Assembly: GCA_016937975.1 (NCBI GenBank)
Contig: JAFGVN010000113.1
Coordinates: forward strand, 1-64,000
Reading direction: 5' to 3'
Origin: Clostridia bacterium
GTDB lineage: Bacteria > Bacillota > Clostridia > Peptostreptococcales > Acidaminobacteraceae
Length of the DNA: 64,000 nt
In this document: piece by piece, positions 55,405-64,000 of the stretch
Numbering within the stretch: position 1 is the first letter of the stretch
Layout of the letters: each line of letters opens with the position of its first letter
Position numbers and translations under genes: made by a program
Notes under the pieces: model-generated
The model's input: only the letters and a program-made list of their open reading frames with translations
What the model was told of the DNA's origin: nothing
Databases searched by the model: none

Positions 55405-57768
55405 ATGCTTACAGAACGTGTTAAGAAATTGAGAAAAGCAAGTAAAATGGCAAAACCTCATATATGGATTGAACGAGCAAAATACGTCACTGATGTATAT
55501 GAAGCTCATCAAGGAAAAGTTTCAACACCAGTTTTAAGAGCAATGGTATTCTATGAAATACTTAAAAACAAACCAATTTTTATCGGTGAAGGAGAACTGA
55601 TTGTTGGAGAAAAAGCAGCTGGTCCTGGTGGTGCACCGACTTATCCAGAACTTTGTTGCCATGAGTTGTCTGATTTTGATGTGATGCAATCGAGAAAACA
55701 AGTGAGTTTTCAAGTGGACAATGAAGCTTATGACATACAACAAAATAAAATCATTCCTTATTGGAAAGAAAGGTCTATTCGACATAAAATATTTGAGAAC
55801 ATGTCAAAGGAATGGAAAGATGCTTACCAAGCAGGAATCTTTACAGAGTTTTTAGAACAGAGAGCACCAGGACATACTGTTGCTGACAAGAAAATCTTTC
55901 AAAAGGGATTCATTGATTTTAAAGAAGAAATCCTTGAAAAAATTCAGTCCTTAAATCAAATAAATGATTTAAGAGATTATGATAAAAAAGAACAATTAAA
56001 AGCAATGGCTTTAAGTTGTGATGCTATAATGCTCTATGCAAAGCGTCATAGTGAGTATGCTTTGAGCTTAGCAAAAGAATGTTCCGACGAACTGAGAAAA
56101 AAAGAATTATTAAAAATTGCAGAGGTTTGTGAAAGAGTTCCTGCCCATGCACCGAGGACCTATTGGGAAGCGCTCCAAGCTTATTGGTTTATCCATTTAG
56201 GCATAACAACAGAACTGAATACTTGGGATGCCTTTAGCCCAGGGAGACTTGATCAACACCTCTTGCCTTTTTATTTGAAGGAGAAGGAAGCTGGTACATT
56301 AGACAAGGGATTTGCCTATGAACTTTTAAATCTATTTTGGATTAAGTTTAACAATCAACCAGCACCCCCTAAAGTTGGATTTACACTTCTTGAAAGTGCC
56401 ACATACACAGATTTTGCCAACATTGGTGTGGGAGGATTAACCGTTACGGGTGAGGATGCAGTTAATGAAATGTCCTATTTGATTTTAGACTGTATTGATG
56501 AGATGCGTCTTGTACAACCAAGTTCAAATGTGCAGTTGAGTCAAAAAAATCCAGATGCCTTTATTGCTCATGCCTTAAAAATCATAAGAAAGGGTGCAGG
56601 ACAACCTTCTATTTTCAATGCAGATGCTGTGATAAAGGAGATGCTCAATATGGGCAAAAGCCTTGAAGATGCCAGAGAAGGTGGCTGTAGTGGTTGCGTG
56701 GAAACTGGTGCATTTGGCAAGGAAGCGTATATTTTACAGGGATACTTTAATCTAACAAAAATTCTTGAAATCACTCTTAATAATGGATATGATAGGAATA
56801 CAGATAAATTAATTGGTCTAGAAACAGGAGATCCTAGAAACTTCAAAAACTATGAAGAACTTTTTGAAGCATATAAAAAACAATTGAAGTATTTTCTAGA
56901 TATCAAAATTCATGGTTCCAATTGGATTACGAGATTGTATGCGAAAGAAATGCCAGCACCATTCATGTCTGTGGTAATCGATGATTGCATTCAATCTGGA
57001 AAAGATTATAATAATGGTGGCGCAAGATATAATACTTCTTATATTCAAGGGGTTGGAATCGGAACAATAACTGACAGTTTGTCAGCTATAAAACAACATA
57101 TTTTTGATGATCAGAGATATTCGATGGATGAAATGCTTAAGGCGTTAGAGCATAATTTTGAAAATCATGAGTTGATGAGAAATGTTTTATTCCATAAAAC
57201 CAGAAAATATGGTAATGATGATGATTATCCAGATCAGCTGATGCAAGAGGTCTTTAATGCCTTTTATGAAAATGTAAATGGTCGTGAGAATCCAAATGGT
57301 GGCCATTACCGCATAAATATGCTGCCTACAACTTGTCATGTTTTCTTCGGATCTGTCATTGGCGCTACACCTGATGGGAGATTTAAAGGTTTGCCACTTT
57401 CAGAAGGTATTTCACCTACAAAAGGTGCAGATAAGCATGGACCGACAGCAGTTATAAAATCCGTATCAAAAATGGATCATCTTAAGACTGGCGGTACTTT
57501 GTTGAACCAAAAGTTCACACCAGAGTTATTGAATACAGACAATGCAATAGATGCTTTAACAGCTTTGATTAGAGCATACTTTAAAATGAATGGTCATCAT
57601 ATTCAATTTAATGTTGTTAGAGCTGAAACTTTAAAAATGGCTCAGATGCAACCTGAAGCATATGAGGATCTTATCGTAAGAGTAGCAGGTTACAGTGATT
57701 ATTTTAATCACTTAAGTCCTGCACTCCAAAATGAAATAATTAGTAGAACGGAACATATGGGTTTTTAG
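55405..57768 (+). CDS. hypD: Glycyl radical enzyme, likely trans-4-hydroxy-L-proline dehydratase
   Basis: The protein has 787 residues. The glycyl radical motif RVAGYSDYFNHLS puts the radical on Gly762. The active-site loop GCSGCVETGAFGKEAY provides Cys431 and Glu433. Residues that I recall from the published Clostridioides difficile HypD active site (H160, D278, S334, D339, F340, C434, E436, Y450, T645, G765) find counterparts here at a constant offset of three: H157, D275, S331, D336, F337, C431, E433, Y447, T642, G762. HypD dehydrates trans-4-hydroxy-L-proline to pyrroline-5-carboxylate. The activase and an Xaa-Pro peptidase are in the same operon. ProC is not nearby. Confidence 0.88.
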   Translation: MLTERVKKLRKASKMAKPHIWIERAKYVTDVYEAHQGKVSTPVLRAMVFYEILKNKPIFIGEGELIVGEKAAGPGGAPTYPELCCHELSDFDVMQSRKQVSFQVDNEAYDIQQNKIIPYWKERSIRHKIFENMSKEWKDAYQAGIFTEFLEQRAPGHTVADKKIFQKGFIDFKEEILEKIQSLNQINDLRDYDKKEQLKAMALSCDAIMLYAKRHSEYALSLAKECSDELRKKELLKIAEVCERVPAHAPRTYWEALQAYWFIHLGITTELNTWDAFSPGRLDQHLLPFYLKEKEAGTLDKGFAYELLNLFWIKFNNQPAPPKVGFTLLESATYTDFANIGVGGLTVTGEDAVNEMSYLILDCIDEMRLVQPSSNVQLSQKNPDAFIAHALKIIRKGAGQPSIFNADAVIKEMLNMGKSLEDAREGGCSGCVETGAFGKEAYILQGYFNLTKILEITLNNGYDRNTDKLIGLETGDPRNFKNYEELFEAYKKQLKYFLDIKIHGSNWITRLYAKEMPAPFMSVVIDDCIQSGKDYNNGGARYNTSYIQGVGIGTITDSLSAIKQHIFDDQRYSMDEMLKALEHNFENHELMRNVLFHKTRKYGNDDDYPDQLMQEVFNAFYENVNGRENPNGGHYRINMLPTTCHVFFGSVIGATPDGRFKGLPLSEGISPTKGADKHGPTAVIKSVSKMDHLKTGGTLLNQKFTPELLNTDNAIDALTALIRAYFKMNGHHIQFNVVRAETLKMAQMQPEAYEDLIVRVAGYSDYFNHLSPALQNEIISRTEHMGF

Positions 57769-57777
57769 GAGGAAAAA

Positions 57778-58338
57778 ATGGTTAATGATATAGGTAGTAA
57801 ACTGAAGCAGTTGAGAACAATGAAGGAATTGACACTTAAAGATTTAAGCGCAAAAACAAATCTTTCTATTGGTTTTTTATCTCAAATTGAGAGAGGGGTA
57901 ACCTCTGTAGCAATTTCATCGTTGGATGTGATTGCCAAAGCATTAGATACGGATTTATCTTATTTCTTTACGATGCCTAAGAAAAGAGAGAGACAAGTAT
58001 TAAGATCTTTTGAACAAGAAGTTTTCACAATTAAAAACTCTCAGTTTATAGATTATCATTTAACCTTAAATCCTGAAGAAATGGAAATACTACCAAGGTT
58101 GCAAATCATTTTACCTCAAGGTGATGATGATGGCAATGAGCCTTATGGACATGAAGGTGAAGAATTTATATATGTGCTGGAAGGTATTTTAACGGTGAAT
58201 TTAGACAATCAAATCTATCAATTGTATCCTGGGGATTCAATGCACTACAATTCTTCTACACCACACAATTGGAACAATAATACATCTAAGAATGTAAAAA
58301 TTCTGATTATCAGTACACCAAATCGTTTTAAAAAGTAG
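57778..58338 (+). CDS. XRE-cupin transcriptional regulator of the GRE operon
   Basis: The protein has 186 residues. An N-terminal XRE helix-turn-helix (LKDLSAKTNLSIGFLSQIERGVTSVAISSLDVIAKAL) is followed by a C-terminal cupin barrel (about 105-180) with GHEGEEFIYVLEGILTV and YPGDSMHYNSSTPHNW. The cupin probably senses a small metabolite, such as the substrate or product of the upstream enzyme. It starts 9 bp after the glycyl radical enzyme gene with AGGAGG. Confidence 0.9.
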   Translation: MVNDIGSKLKQLRTMKELTLKDLSAKTNLSIGFLSQIERGVTSVAISSLDVIAKALDTDLSYFFTMPKKRERQVLRSFEQEVFTIKNSQFIDYHLTLNPEEMEILPRLQIILPQGDDDGNEPYGHEGEEFIYVLEGILTVNLDNQIYQLYPGDSMHYNSSTPHNWNNNTSKNVKILIISTPNRFKK

Positions 58339-58343
58339 AATCT

Positions 58344-58374
58344 AAAAGAGATGTCTTAAGTGACATCTCTTTTT
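58344..58374. terminator. Bidirectional terminator
   Basis: AAAAGAGATGTC (58344-58355) pairs perfectly with GACATCTCTTTT (58362-58373), with T runs on both strands between convergent genes. Confidence 0.9.
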
Positions 58375-59173
58375 AAATGACTTCAGTACTGAGCATATTT
58401 GTAATATTTTTCAAGATGCAGATCTGTTCCAAATAATCCTCAAACTTTTGATACCAGTTGTCACCTTTTAAAAAGGGATACTGCACTTCAATGACAATGG
58501 AACCTTTATAGCCTATGTTAATCAAGTAGGCAAGAGATTTCAAATAATCCGTATTACCATAAATTAAAGGATGATGATCACTTTTGTTCACATCATGGAT
58601 GTGTACATTCGTCACATGTTTTTCATAGGTATCTTCTAGAACATATTCACATTGATTCATAGCAACTTCATGTCCAATATCCCAACAATAATTTATGAGG
58701 TTTTGATGGAGAAGGGTGCTTAGCTCAAAATTTTGCGAGTTAACATTTTCAATGGCAAAAGTTAAGTCATATTGATAGATATGGACTATGGCATTGAGTT
58801 TTGAAATCAACTTCAAGGTTCTATAGTAAGAGTGTTCCCCAATTGGATGATGAACAGGATGAATGGTAATTTTTATGGTTTCCTTCATAATATCAGAAAG
58901 CTTCTGATAAAAAGTCAGGTATTCAGTTAACTTCTTATAATCATCATAGTGATTCATTATTTGATCATGGGCATGAATTTGCAATTTAAGATTCAAACCT
59001 TTCAAATGAGTCGCATATTCTGATAATCGAACACATTCCATAGGATGATCCAAATCTGCTTTGATTTCAAAACCATCCAGTAAAGAAAAACTATCGAATT
59101 TTTTCAAGGTTTGCATAATAAAATAAGGTTCAGAGAGTTGATGTATATTATAAATACTCAGTAGAAATTTCAT
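58373..59173 (-). CDS. Xylose isomerase-like TIM-barrel protein
   Basis: The protein has 266 residues and the sugar isomerase/AP endonuclease 2 barrel fold. Typical metal-ligand segments are present: IHPVHHPIGEHSYY, FAIENVNSQ (a metal Glu), CWDIGHEVAMN, NVHIHDVNKSDHHPL and IVIEVQYP. It may be a sugar epimerase or isomerase, and the substrate cannot be named. The ATG at 59173 follows AGGAGG. The reading from 59224 is longer but has no site. It has no operon partners. Confidence 0.82.
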   Translation of the reverse strand: MKFLLSIYNIHQLSEPYFIMQTLKKFDSFSLLDGFEIKADLDHPMECVRLSEYATHLKGLNLKLQIHAHDQIMNHYDDYKKLTEYLTFYQKLSDIMKETIKITIHPVHHPIGEHSYYRTLKLISKLNAIVHIYQYDLTFAIENVNSQNFELSTLLHQNLINYCWDIGHEVAMNQCEYVLEDTYEKHVTNVHIHDVNKSDHHPLIYGNTDYLKSLAYLINIGYKGSIVIEVQYPFLKGDNWYQKFEDYLEQICILKNITNMLSTEVI

Positions 59174-59330
59174 AGGACCTCCTTGATTATGAGTTGATTG
59201 TATAACAGCAAAGTTAAGTTTCAAGGTAATTTTTTAAAATTTAACATAGACCTGTAACTCTTAATGAAGGTTTAATAGGAACTTTACATTGATATAATAA
59301 TTAAAGCATAAACTGTATTCTGGAAAGGAG

Positions 59331-59349
59331 ATATGATACGTTATCATAT
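59331..59349 (+). promoter_or_regulatory. Hairpin between Shine-Dalgarno and start codon
   Basis: ATATGATA (59331-59338), CGT and TATCATAT (59342-59349) form a perfect 8-bp hairpin. It lies between AAGGAG (59325-59330) and the ATG at 59358. With the hairpin folded, only 8 nt remain between the binding site and the ATG, the normal distance; unfolded they are 27 nt apart. Confidence 0.65.
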
Positions 59350-59374
59350 TTTAGTTTATGGAATTATTAGATAA
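59333..59374 (+). CDS. Possible 13-residue leader peptide
   Basis: An ATG at 59333, close to AAGGAG (only 2 nt away, which is short), opens a 13-codon frame ending at TAA 59372-59374. It overlaps the start of the EAL-GGDEF gene by 17 nt in another frame. The peptide (MIRYHILVYGIIR) could couple translation to the main gene, but the hairpin explanation is at least as good. Confidence 0.25.
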   Translation: MIRYHILVYGIIR

Positions 59375-61142
59375 GAATGAGATTAATCCTGGAATGGTTT
59401 TAGAGTTTCAAACCTTACTCCAAAAAGGACAAATAACAACCCTTTATCAACCCATAGTCGATATTGGAAATGGTAATATTCTAGGCTATGAAGCTTTAAG
59501 TAGAGGACCAGAAAATTCCTTGTTAAATTCACCTTTGGTATTGTTGTCCATTGCAGAACTTTTAAACAAAACATGGGAACTGGAAAGACTGCTTCGTATT
59601 AAAGCCTTAGAGAATGCCACTTTTACAGATCAATACTTGCTTTTCTTAAATGTAGATCCCAATGTCATTAAAGATCAAAAATTTAAATCGGGTTTCACGA
59701 AAGAGAACTTAAGAAAAATGAATATATCACCAGGTGCAATTGTTTTGGAACTTACGGAAAGGTCGGCTATTAATCATTATGAAGATTTCAAAAATGTGCT
59801 TAAACATTATACCAATCAGGGCTATAGCATCGCCATAGATGATGCAGGTTCAGGTTACTCTGGGTTAAAAACTTTATATGAAGTTTATCCCAAATATATG
59901 AAAATTGATATGGATTTCATTAGGAATATCAATAGTGATACCTTTAAGCAAGCCATTGTTAAAGCCTTAATTGAAACTGCAAAAATTGCTAATATCAAGA
60001 CCATAGCAGAAGGAATTGAAACCCCTGAGGAATTAAGAACCTTAATCCGTTTAGGTGTAGATTATGGACAAGGTTATTATATTCAAAGACCAAAACAAAG
60101 TATTGAATCCATTTCTGAAAACGTCTTGGATTTAATTTGGCAAGAAAATAATTTGATTAATCAAGTGAATACCTACAGTGAATCTTATCATTATATTCAT
60201 CATGTCATGGATGATGTAGTTTCCTTTGATAAAAGTGCTTCTTGTAAGGAAGTCTACGACTTTTTAAATGCACAAAATGGTACCAGTGTTTGTGTCACTT
60301 CAGGTGGTTTTCCTTTAGGAATCGTAACCTTAAATATGATTAATAAAGTATTTGGTAGACAATATGGCTATTCTGTTTACTCACACAGACCTATCGAGTT
60401 AATTATGAATACACAACCCTTAATGGTGGATTATTATTTGCCAGTGCATGCAGTGGCTAAAAAAGCATTAAATCGATCCAATGAGCATCTTTATGAGGAT
60501 ATCATCGTTCTTAAAGGGGCGCAATACGCCGGCATTGTCACCATGAAAAGAATTCTCGACTATGCCATTAACTATGAAAAAAACTATGCAAAAGAGCTGA
60601 ATCCCTTGACTTCGCTTCCGGGAAATGTCATCATAAATCGTGTTTTACAAGGTCTTGTGAAATCCAATCATAATGCCAGTATCATTTATGCAGACTTGGA
60701 CAACTTTAAAGCCTACAATGATGTGTATGGCTTTGAAAAAGGGGATCAGGTGATTAAATTAACAGCATCCATTTTAGAGCGATGTGTTAAAAAACATGCA
60801 CCTTATACAACCTTTGTAGGTCATATTGGTGGAGACGACTTTATTGTAGTTAACAATGGGGATTATGAAATGTCATCTCTTTTATGTTCTGAAATAGTCA
60901 GTGCCTTCGATGAGGAAATCATTAAATATTTCGATGAGAAAGATCTTAAAAATAATTATATTACTACTGTGGATCGGTTTAATACCATGAGAAAACATGG
61001 TATAACATCTATTTCCCTAGGTGGTATTATAGGGAGTGTGGGTAAGTTTCAAGACGTTCAAAGTGTTAGTGCAGAGTTGAGTCTTATGAAAAAGGAAGCC
61101 AAAAAAATTGAAAAAAGTCATTTTGTCTTAAATACTGTCTAA
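59358..61142 (+). CDS. EAL-CBS-GGDEF cyclic di-GMP protein
   Basis: The protein has 594 residues. The EAL domain (about 20-260) has YEALSR, LELTER, AIDDAGSGYS and QGYYIQRP. A CBS-pair region (about 290-415) has VTSGGFPLGIVTL and HLYEDIIVLKGAQYAGIVTM. The GGDEF domain (about 420-590) has YADLDNFKAYND and the active site GGDDF. An RxxD I-site is not evident before GGDDF. Either domain could be active, and the CBS pair may sense an adenine nucleotide. An in-frame stop lies directly upstream, so the start must be at or after 59358. Confidence 0.92.
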   Translation: MELLDKNEINPGMVLEFQTLLQKGQITTLYQPIVDIGNGNILGYEALSRGPENSLLNSPLVLLSIAELLNKTWELERLLRIKALENATFTDQYLLFLNVDPNVIKDQKFKSGFTKENLRKMNISPGAIVLELTERSAINHYEDFKNVLKHYTNQGYSIAIDDAGSGYSGLKTLYEVYPKYMKIDMDFIRNINSDTFKQAIVKALIETAKIANIKTIAEGIETPEELRTLIRLGVDYGQGYYIQRPKQSIESISENVLDLIWQENNLINQVNTYSESYHYIHHVMDDVVSFDKSASCKEVYDFLNAQNGTSVCVTSGGFPLGIVTLNMINKVFGRQYGYSVYSHRPIELIMNTQPLMVDYYLPVHAVAKKALNRSNEHLYEDIIVLKGAQYAGIVTMKRILDYAINYEKNYAKELNPLTSLPGNVIINRVLQGLVKSNHNASIIYADLDNFKAYNDVYGFEKGDQVIKLTASILERCVKKHAPYTTFVGHIGGDDFIVVNNGDYEMSSLLCSEIVSAFDEEIIKYFDEKDLKNNYITTVDRFNTMRKHGITSISLGGIIGSVGKFQDVQSVSAELSLMKKEAKKIEKSHFVLNTV

Positions 61143-61158: not shown

Positions 61159-61208
61159 ACATGCATTTCACATGCCTTTATTATTTTATAATTAAGGAGG
61201 CGGTAATT

Positions 61209-62651
61209 ATGAAAAAGATATTAGTATTTATATTAATTTTTAGTTTAGTAACAAGTGCAGTTGTGATTGCAGATCATGAAGAAGGAGATCCTGAATTCTG
61301 GTTCTTTAAATGGATCCATGATTATTTCATTCATGAAAACCAAAAGGAATTGTCAAACCAACCTATGAATCCATTATATCCAAGCAGTCCAATGATTCAG
61401 AATCCCCCTGAGAGAAAAGAGAACACAAAACAAGATAGCACAAGGGATCAAATGGGTATACATGAAGCAAATACAACTTTAACTGTAAAAACAGCCAATG
61501 AAATGGAAGAACTTTATTTGTCGACAATTAATAAGTCAGCATCAATTATGGGTTATCCTATTGTGGATACCAATCAAAATTCCTTCTATGACAATTATAA
61601 TGAAATCAAAGAGCCAAGTGAAACGAGTGCTTTTTATGGTCAAGACGCTACTTATAAAGGTTTTGAATTTAGTTACTCAGATAATTTAGATGGTACAGTT
61701 ACAGATTTGACTACGGGTTTGATGTGGCAACAAGATCCAGGTGAAAAAATGACTTGGCAAGAAGCTGTGGAAAGAGCAAATGATTTTAGCTTGGCAGGTT
61801 ATGATGACTGGAGACTTCCAACCATAAAGGAATTATATTCCTTGATTCAATTTAGCGGTGTGACTGGACAAAATGCAGAGAATTCCATTCCTTATATTGA
61901 TACCGATTATTTTGTGTTCTATTATGGAGATAAAACCGGTGAAAGGTTTATAGATGCACAGTTTGCTTCAAGCACCATCTATGATAGTGATACCATGAAC
62001 AATAATGCTACTGTATTTGGCGTCAATTTTGCAGATGGAAGAATTAAAGGTTATCCAGTGGAAAAAACCTTTTATGTTCTTTATGTGAGAGATAATCTGA
62101 ATTATGGAGAAAACTTATTCGTAGACAATGAAGACGGTACTATTTCAGATTTAGCAACAAACTTAATGTGGACCAAAGAGGACAGTGGTGCTTATTTAGA
62201 TTTTGGCGGCATGACATGGGAAAAAGCTTTGGCATTTGCAGAAGGATTTGAATATGCAGGTTATGAGGATTGGCGTCTTCCAAATGCCAAAGAATTACAA
62301 AGTATAGTGGATTACAATTATAGTCCTGATACAACAAATTCAGCTGCCATTGACCCACTGTTTTCTGCAACAGAAGTTGAGAATCTCATGGGTGCGGTGG
62401 ATTATCCCTATTACTGGACCAGTACAACACATCTCGATGGAAAAGTTCTTGGGTCTAGTGCAGTTTACATCTCTTTTGGAGAAAGTCTAGGTGTCATGAA
62501 GGATACCTTCATGGATGTTCATGGGGCAGGTGCTCAGAGAAGTGATCCTAAAACAGATGACAATAATCAATATCCATCTGGAGGTTATGGTCCTCAAGGG
62601 GATGTGAGAATTGTAGATAATTATGTCAGATTGGTACGTGATATAGAATAA
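61209..62651 (+). CDS. Secreted protein with two DUF1566 (Lcl C-terminal) domains
   Basis: The protein has 480 residues. A signal peptide (MKKILVFILIFSLVTSAVVIA) is followed by a low-complexity linker and two DUF1566 domains. The first (about 150-300) opens DNLDGTVTDLTTGLMW and contains GYDDWRLPTIKELYSL. The second (about 310-475) opens DNEDGTISDLATNLMW and contains GYEDWRLPNAKELQS, then YYWTSTT. The family includes the Legionella Lcl C-terminal part, which binds glycosaminoglycans. The role here is unknown. AGGAGGCGG precedes the ATG. The response-regulator gene follows 8 bp later. Confidence 0.85.
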   Translation: MKKILVFILIFSLVTSAVVIADHEEGDPEFWFFKWIHDYFIHENQKELSNQPMNPLYPSSPMIQNPPERKENTKQDSTRDQMGIHEANTTLTVKTANEMEELYLSTINKSASIMGYPIVDTNQNSFYDNYNEIKEPSETSAFYGQDATYKGFEFSYSDNLDGTVTDLTTGLMWQQDPGEKMTWQEAVERANDFSLAGYDDWRLPTIKELYSLIQFSGVTGQNAENSIPYIDTDYFVFYYGDKTGERFIDAQFASSTIYDSDTMNNNATVFGVNFADGRIKGYPVEKTFYVLYVRDNLNYGENLFVDNEDGTISDLATNLMWTKEDSGAYLDFGGMTWEKALAFAEGFEYAGYEDWRLPNAKELQSIVDYNYSPDTTNSAAIDPLFSATEVENLMGAVDYPYYWTSTTHLDGKVLGSSAVYISFGESLGVMKDTFMDVHGAGAQRSDPKTDDNNQYPSGGYGPQGDVRIVDNYVRLVRDIE

Positions 62652-62659
62652 GAGGTACT

Positions 62660-63328
62660 ATGATTAAAGTATTAATAGTAGATGATGAAATAGGTATTCG
62701 AATGCTCATTCAAGATTATTTGGAAAATGAAGGTTTTAGCACGGTTCTTGGTAAGAACGGTGCTGAAGCCATTTCTATACTTGAAAATAACAGTGATATC
62801 GACTTGATGATTCTGGATGTTAAAATGCCTGAAATGGACGGTTTTGAGACTTTAGAATACATAAGATCATTTTCTCAAATTCCTGTTTTGTTTTTAACTG
62901 CACTTGGAGAATCCTATCAAGAAGTCAAAGGTCTTAAATTAGGAGCCGATGATTATATTAAGAAGCCATTTACCTATGATGTTTTAATGGCAAGAATACA
63001 ATTGGTTCTTAGAAAAAATAATTTACTTCAAACCTACGTGTATGAGAATTTAAAAGTAGAAAATCATACCCCCGCTGTTTACATTCAAGATAACATGATC
63101 AAATTGAGAAAAATGGAATGGCGCTTGTTGATTTATTTAATGCAGCATATGGGCCAAACTTTAACGCGAGAACAACTGATTAATGAGGTTTGGGGATATG
63201 ATTTTGAAGGTGATCCAAGAACTTTGGATACTCATATTAAAACCTTAAGGCAAAAATTAGGTGAGTATAGTCAATGTATAGAAACGGAAAGGGGCATAGG
63301 TTACCGATTTGAAAAAAACTTTTCTTAA
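62660..63328 (+). CDS. OmpR-family response regulator
   Basis: The protein has 222 residues. The receiver domain (about 1-115) has VLIVDDEIGIR, the phosphoacceptor Asp53 in LMILDVKMPEMDGFETLEYI, FLTALGES and the switch lysine in DDYIKKPF. The C-terminal winged helix (about 125-220) ends LDTHIKTLRQKLGEYSQCIETERGIGYRFE. It is followed by, and overlaps, the histidine kinase gene. It may be co-transcribed with the secreted DUF1566 protein. Confidence 0.95.
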   Translation: MIKVLIVDDEIGIRMLIQDYLENEGFSTVLGKNGAEAISILENNSDIDLMILDVKMPEMDGFETLEYIRSFSQIPVLFLTALGESYQEVKGLKLGADDYIKKPFTYDVLMARIQLVLRKNNLLQTYVYENLKVENHTPAVYIQDNMIKLRKMEWRLLIYLMQHMGQTLTREQLINEVWGYDFEGDPRTLDTHIKTLRQKLGEYSQCIETERGIGYRFEKNFS

Positions 63329-64000
63329 AAAAATGATGTTTACTTTTTCTTTGACATTTCTTTTTTTGCTACTTCTCTTGCAAGGTGCGTTTTATCTCTT
63401 CGTTGATGATTTTTACGTTGCAATCAATCACAGAAAGATGATTGAATCTGCCAACGATTATCCAAGATTAGTTGAGGCGTATGGTCCTGCAATTGCAATT
63501 GAACGCCTTTCAAGTACAAGTGGTTTTCAAGTGAATATTATAAAGGATTTTGAATTAATGCAGCAACAATTCCTTAAAGGGATTGTTTTGAAGGATATGA
63601 AACCTATTCAGTTTTTTGAAACAGAAGAGCATTTGATTGTTATTAAGAAAATGACTGTCCATGATTTTTTAGTACTGATAAAACCCATGGGGTTAGCTCA
63701 AGAAGCTACTGGCATATTTCAAAGATTTATGGTGTATGCCTCCTTAGGACTATATTTGATTGGCAGTTTTTTTATATATCTTTTCAGTAAAAGAATAAGC
63801 CAACCACTGAAAAGAATGAATGAACATACAAAATCAATTGCTCAGTTATCCTTCCAAGAGGATTTGGAAATAAGATCAGAAGATGAACTGGGTGAGTTGG
63901 CAAATTCGATTAACATTATGTCTAATCGTTTGAATAAAGTTTATGGAGATTTAAAGGATACCCTAGAAGAAGAACGAGAAATGGAAAGGTTAAGAAGACA
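63309..64000 (+). CDS. Sensor histidine kinase, cut by the window end
   Basis: The visible 230 residues include a first membrane segment (FTFSLTFLFLLLLLQGAFYLFV), an extracellular sensor of about 110 residues, a second membrane segment (YASLGLYLIGSFFIYLF) and a HAMP domain (RISQPLKRMNEHTKSIAQ). The window ends in the coiled coil that precedes the histidine-phosphotransfer region, so no catalytic motif can be seen. A TTG at 63309 with AAAGGGG upstream, 20 bp inside the response-regulator gene, and an ATG at 63333 without a site are both possible starts. Confidence 0.85.
   Translation, partial: MKKTFLKKMMFTFSLTFLFLLLLLQGAFYLFVDDFYVAINHRKMIESANDYPRLVEAYGPAIAIERLSSTSGFQVNIIKDFELMQQQFLKGIVLKDMKPIQFFETEEHLIVIKKMTVHDFLVLIKPMGLAQEATGIFQRFMVYASLGLYLIGSFFIYLFSKRISQPLKRMNEHTKSIAQLSFQEDLEIRSEDELGELANSINIMSNRLNKVYGDLKDTLEEEREMERLRR

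Follow-up and report, generated by a model that had tools for sequence, protein, structure and literature searches.

The window analysed here is a whole stretch of 64,000 nts from a Clostridia bacterium of the Acidaminobacteraceae (assembly GCA_016937975.1, contig JAFGVN010000113.1). Near its end, a gene of 594 codons encodes an EAL-CBS-GGDEF protein, for which the initial annotation had recognized the EAL and GGDEF domains but not the CBS domain that is also present. Divergent from this gene, a xylose-isomerase-like TIM barrel protein, matching CbiR of cobamide remodelling below threshold, is encoded on the minus strand (58373-59173), an arrangement seemingly kept in G002, another genome of the genus. 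The region 55405-58338 contains genes for a trans-4-hydroxy-L-proline dehydratase (NF043068, above cut-off) and then an HTH-cupin regulator. Just 3′ of the EAL gene, the region 61161-63998 encodes a protein with two Lcl_C stretches, which is followed by a response-regulator-like and then a sensor-kinase-like ORF, both read by eye. The leader of the EAL gene contains the following features:

59290..59298, plus strand: extended -10 element TGATATAAT, read by eye, with a predicted transcript start near 59305
59307..59314, plus strand: 5′ arm of a possible outer stem, CATAAACT, pairing with 59353-59360 in the minimum-energy fold
59325..59330, plus strand: Shine-Dalgarno (SD) sequence AAGGAG, from the sequence
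59331..59338, plus strand: 5′ arm of the putative bridging hairpin, ATATGATA, from the sequence and a repeat finder
59339..59341, plus strand: loop CGT of this hairpin, from the sequence and a repeat finder
59342..59349, plus strand: 3′ arm of this hairpin, TATCATAT, from the sequence and a repeat finder
59350..59357, plus strand: remainder of 8 nts, TTTAGTTT, with the in-frame stop TAG at 59352-59354, from the sequence
59353..59360, plus strand: 3′ arm of the possible outer stem, AGTTTATG, start codon included, from the minimum-energy fold and shuffles
59358-59360, plus strand: ATG start codon of the EAL gene, from the sequence
59358..61142, plus strand: gene of the EAL-CBS-GGDEF protein, 594 aa
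59333..59374, plus strand: 13-codon ORF in another frame, overlapping the EAL start codon, from the sequence

The initial annotation had described an AAGGAG followed by a perfect hairpin that fills 19 of the 27 nts before the ATG and leaves 8 nts, and this description is correct base for base; the repeat finder gives a stem of 8 nts, 100% complementary, with 3 nts between the arms (59331-59349). A start earlier than 59358 is ruled out by the in-frame stop at 59352, which had also been noted directly upstream. The ATG at 59358 was further said to be the only possible one. A second in-frame ATG does exist at 59394 (codon 13) but it too is without an SD-like word, and no such word was found 4 to 13 nts before any start in the first 50 codons of the gene. 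If transcription starts near 59305, as predicted from the -10 element, the mRNA would hold the whole SD-hairpin element; a consensus promoter scan did not list the extended -10 at 59290-59298. Directly 5′ of the -10, TTTAACA/TTTACA-like repeats occur every ~10-11 bp (59240-59298), and such repeats are also found at the same-genus orthologue (L013 1396-1456) and seemingly at other orthologues. We take this array to resemble a PhoB/PhoP-type operator, and the cyclic-di-GMP gene may be part of a phosphate or similar regulon.

The layout is not confined to the EAL gene. In a first sample of the genome (845 kb; 637 ORFs with a minimum length of 150 aa, of which 636 entered the count), 131 genes have no 5-letter SD word at 4-13 nts from any early start. 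Only three of these have an SD word of at least 6 letters at 14-40 nts, a length rule set before any second case was known, and in two of the three the gap is filled by a perfect hairpin that leaves exactly 8 nts. These two genes encode the EAL-CBS-GGDEF protein and a HAD-type hydrolase, whose start is set by the position of the DxDGT motif close to the N-terminus. The motif TATGA..TCATA, present in the EAL and HAD stems and found after GGAG only there in this genome, was considered as a signal and rejected, as 31 of 41 family genomes have similarly low match numbers.

The larger sample covered 1.77 Mb, or 44% of the 4.03-Mb genome, with 1696 ORFs of at least 60 aa. A pair was defined as an SD word of at least 5 letters with the first possible start 16-40 nts further on (n = 110); counts were restricted to first possible starts because internal starts lying after the true one had raised the numbers when all starts were scanned. 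A hairpin was counted when its stem had at least 6 pairs with at most one G-U, its loop 3-8 nts, its arm began 0-3 nts after the SD and 4-11 nts were left. Such hairpins were found at five genes, with 1.0 expected from shuffled gaps: the EAL-CBS-GGDEF and HAD genes, an ABC-F ATPase gene (best NCBIfam match NF011646, below cut-off), a gene for an MsrA/MsrB protein (match above cut-off) and a gene whose product, matched by no NCBIfam model, was read as a putative helix-turn-helix regulator. The stems of the five are unrelated. Among the seven genes of this sample that have a strong SD at a distance and no near one, four carry the hairpin, where 0.2 are expected and none of 1000 shuffles yields as many; the rest comprises ORFs of 73 and 90 aa and one of 270 aa, whose shorter hairpin leaves 16 nts.

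A stricter control on real sequence, in which 30 permuted 9-mer motifs were substituted for the SD, limits this result to strong SDs. Permuted words of at least 6 letters lying 16-40 nts before the first start are followed by a hairpin in 18 of 707 cases, SD words of that length in 4 of 11 (Fisher p 0.0002; p 0.002 when the window gene is removed). For words of at least 5 letters the excess is not significant (5 genes in 110 pairs vs 94 in 3677, p 0.21), and a loose scan with 4-letter SD words gave no clear excess either, its 15 matches corresponding to 13.5 per 10,000 sites vs 6.2-15.1 for other motifs. The reversed SD alone is followed by a hairpin in 2 of 14 cases. Real sequence therefore has more hairpins close to starts than shuffled sequence does, and only the strong SDs stand out.

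The ABC-F gene allowed the layout to be followed across genera. The hairpin is present, with changed letters, in both other members of the genus. Among 27 orthologue loci of a family search, the SD lies 25-40 nts from the ATG in nine, from six genera, and all nine have a hairpin after the SD, with 6-13 bp and 7-11 nts left. The other 18 loci have a near SD word of at least 4 letters and no such hairpin. When the gap of each of the nine leaders was shuffled, such a hairpin arose in 0 to 7.5% of trials. These leaders are:

L093, 2280-2325: SD, hairpin and start of the ABC-F gene
L212, L213, L225, L227, L240, L242, L243 and L244: the same layout

The stems vary greatly from genus to genus. In genus g1, one pair is changed on both sides (U-A to C-G), one becomes a wobble (C-G to U-G) and none is broken; within genus g17, two pairs are changed on both sides and one innermost pair, next to the loop, is broken. 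In controls with slid positions, pairing falls from 100% and 93% to 10-57%. The initial annotation had recommended a search for compensatory changes: paired changes were indeed found at the ABC-F stems of these two genera, but 181 and 112 of 500 shuffles reach the same covariation counts, which are too small to beat shuffles alone. On a protein tree without the partial L247 (26 of 27 loci), the distribution of the hairpin needs 4 changes, where the shuffled mean is 7.7 and none of 500 shuffles is as low, which indicates that the hairpin is inherited. The four changes fit one gain and three losses, and other orders of events equally well. One clade, in which most starts are GTG or TTG and the SD is near, seems to have lost the hairpin. 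The comparison of these leaders indicates that the ABC-F architecture is conserved by structure and not by sequence.

The EAL gene presents a different history. In a family search of 41 genomes its nearest orthologues are 60-61% identical, and the syntenic orthologue of G002, in the same genus (60% identical), has its SD 8 nts from the ATG and no hairpin, with the start of the divergent neighbour conserved. The initial annotation had named homologues that keep the gene without the stem as evidence against its proposal, and this orthologue is one. It does not contradict bridging, because its SD is not distant. No other locus with the hairpin was found among 18 EAL loci including the own one (four further orthologue loci, L043-L046, were covered by a 129-locus scan), a scan of other genomes' contigs for the EAL gene of a closer relative gave one weak match, and neither of the two other members of the genus has a match to the EAL intergenic DNA. 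The bridged leader is likewise absent at 11 HAD and 9 MsrAB orthologue loci. Since these orthologue loci are without it, the hairpin appears to be young at the EAL, HAD and MsrAB genes, and at the EAL gene the comparison indicates that it is a lineage-specific trait. In 400 kb of G002, none of 22 pairs has a hairpin (0.33 expected), yet the ABC-F gene of G002 has one. Over all 129 loci (812 kb and 649 genes, including the 400 kb of G002), five genes score under the counting limits and all are ABC-F; outside this species, the bridged class was found at the ABC-F gene only.

The leader of the EAL gene probably represents a split ribosome-binding site, in which the folded hairpin brings the SD into working range. 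The SD AAGGAG (59325-59330) would pair with the 16S rRNA while the hairpin 59331-59349, still folded, sticks out from the mRNA path, which would place the start at 59358 about 8 nts from the SD instead of 27. The ribosome would accommodate the folded hairpin as at gene 25 of phage T4, and the EAL gene would be translated from 59358. Translation with the hairpin folded had been proposed in the initial annotation and is strengthened by the same layout at four other genes of this genome and by its retention, with altered stem sequences, at 9 of 27 ABC-F loci. The basis is thus the sequence, the geometry, the recurrence at strong distant SDs and the conservation at ABC-F with changed stems. Bridging would explain how the cyclic-di-GMP gene gets translated at all.

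The 27-nt gap folds at -4.1 kcal/mol, compared to a shuffle mean of -0.85, and 18 of 1000 shuffles do as well; taken alone, in an AT-rich genome (34% G+C), this significance is modest, and the weight of the case comes from the recurrence in the genome and from the ABC-F orthologues, not from the fold of a single gap. The stem by itself is AU-rich and weak (-4.0 kcal/mol), but its pairing is predicted to hold at 37°C (lowest pair probability 0.77). A prediction that counts against bridging is that wobble pairs prolong the stem into the SD, the last three bases of which would be unpaired with probabilities of 0.05-0.18 at 37°C. The initial annotation had also suggested a thermal or protein-controlled switch. 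This suggestion found no support: the lowest pair probability is predicted to go from 0.85 to 0.75 over 15 to 42°C, a small change, and the loops and stems of the bridged leaders have no sequence in common for a protein to recognize. The hairpin is more likely to act as a constitutive spacer than as a switch.

Three further explanations can be weighed against a bridging spacer. In a gated leader, the outer stem 59307-59314/59353-59360 would pair the 5′ end of the transcript with the region of the start codon and so hide the start, its opening would turn translation on and the inner hairpin would form part of a switch. The outer stem has 8 perfect pairs, a number reached by 43 of 20,000 shuffles, and the minimum-energy fold of 59305-59362 has -13.6 kcal/mol vs a shuffle mean of -7.1 (11 of 1000 shuffles). 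The predicted pairing of the outer stem, ~0.9 at 20°C, is down to 0.57 at 42°C, a gradual weakening, while the hairpin itself is not predicted to melt as an RNA thermometer would. However, the outer stem was chosen after the fact, it depends on a transcript start that is itself predicted, and freeing the SD and AUG would cost 4.0 kcal/mol at the EAL leader, a value inside the range seen for the other four (1.4-5.3). Such gating supplements bridging more than it replaces it; as a replacement it is unlikely, and the outer stem could be an addition to bridging at the EAL gene. Translational coupling, raised in the initial annotation, would start at the ATG 59333 in the 5′ arm, read 13 codons to the stop ending at 59374 and re-start at 59358. 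The ORF is real and overlaps the EAL start by 17 nts, the HAD gene of the same genome has an overlapping 13-codon ORF 3 nts after its SD (L052 19446-19487, minus strand), and the MsrAB gap holds a TTG 9 nts after the SD, with a short ORF whose stop overlaps the ATG. The leader ORF of the EAL gene does not start at a workable distance, however, as the ATG 59333 lies just 2 nts after AAGGAG, too near for normal initiation, and coupling does not explain the perfect hairpin. Furthermore, 12 of 13 bridged leaders have no start codon 4-12 nts after the SD, MsrAB being the sole exception, and 5 of the 13 have none in the gap. The ORF exists but the common feature of the 13 leaders is the hairpin, and coupling is a poor candidate.

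It is also conceivable that a transcription factor uses the palindrome as a DNA operator, or that the palindrome arose by chance, and that the gene starts without an SD. The palindrome is perfect over 19 bp, and 131 of 636 genes are without a 5-letter SD word at 4-13 nts. This explanation is nevertheless very improbable: the bridged leaders have their shape in common and not their sequence, and the gap holds nothing else seemingly able to recruit the ribosome. The 4.03-Mb genome contains no second exact copy, and 8 of the 9 other sites read, near copies with 1-2 mismatches, fall within ORFs; an operator regulon was rejected on these grounds. Neither the region 59000-59600 nor three ABC-F loci matched any Rfam family of relevance, a mir-4782 match in L225 being taken as spurious.

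A broader and more tentative proposal, rather doubtful at present, is that hairpin-bridged sites may be a standing architecture of chromosomal genes in this Clostridia family, with about 10 per genome in this species (an extrapolation from five genes in 44% of the genome), long kept at ABC-F while the stem sequence turns over, and perhaps making initiation dependent on the state of the ribosome or of a helicase. If so, such genes would escape gene finders built on a linear SD distance. Start-site predictors take the SD-to-start distance as linear. The use of folded spacers by bacteria would be demonstrated by a chromosomal set of which one member is conserved across genera in structure and not in sequence, and the bridged leaders supply about a dozen natural designs for reporter comparison. 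A literature search yielded only the T4 genes 25 and 38 and thrS, among open-access papers, so that the absence of others proves little.

In a review, structures between the SD and the AUG were reported to cut the distance from 22 to 5 nts in T4 gene 38 and from 27 to 11 nts in gene 25, destabilising mutations reduced initiation, and bridging was confirmed at gene 25 by lacZ fusions and DMS probing (PMC3014915). Applied to the T4 record, the same detector gives AAGGAG, 22 nts, a 6-bp hairpin and 6 nts left for gene 38, and GAGG, 27 nts, a 7-bp hairpin and 8 nts left for gene 25, which the 5-letter SD rule of our scans would have missed with its 4-letter SD. The EAL leader is like that of gene 38 in that AAGGAG is directly followed by a hairpin, a short remainder and the ATG, whereas gene 38 is a phage gene with a stable, GC-rich UUCG hairpin. 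With gene 25 it has in common the 27 nts of linear distance, the 8 nts after the hairpin and the absence of the structure in more distant relatives, there in phages; gene 25 differs by its position at the gene 26-25 junction, its SD of only GAGG and its reporter tests. In keeping with the T4 type, the EAL gene has a good SD at a distance (27 nts) with none nearer, and a gap-filling hairpin (8 bp) that restores a normal spacing (8 nts). The structure is kept in relatives at the ABC-F gene and not at the EAL gene, where the nearest orthologues are 60-61% identical.

The hairpin of E. coli thrS, a repressor site, is located 5′ of the SD. At the split ribosome-binding site of thrS, the ribosome accommodates a folded hairpin within the binding site (PMC3936740), as it would at the EAL leader. 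ROSE-type RNA thermometers also place structure in the translation initiation region, as described in PMC8346122. Thermometers hide the SD and open on warming, while the EAL hairpin is predicted to be folded from 15 to 42°C. The EAL leader would join the known T4 type, and the interest lies in finding this type used repeatedly, and conserved, in a bacterial chromosome.
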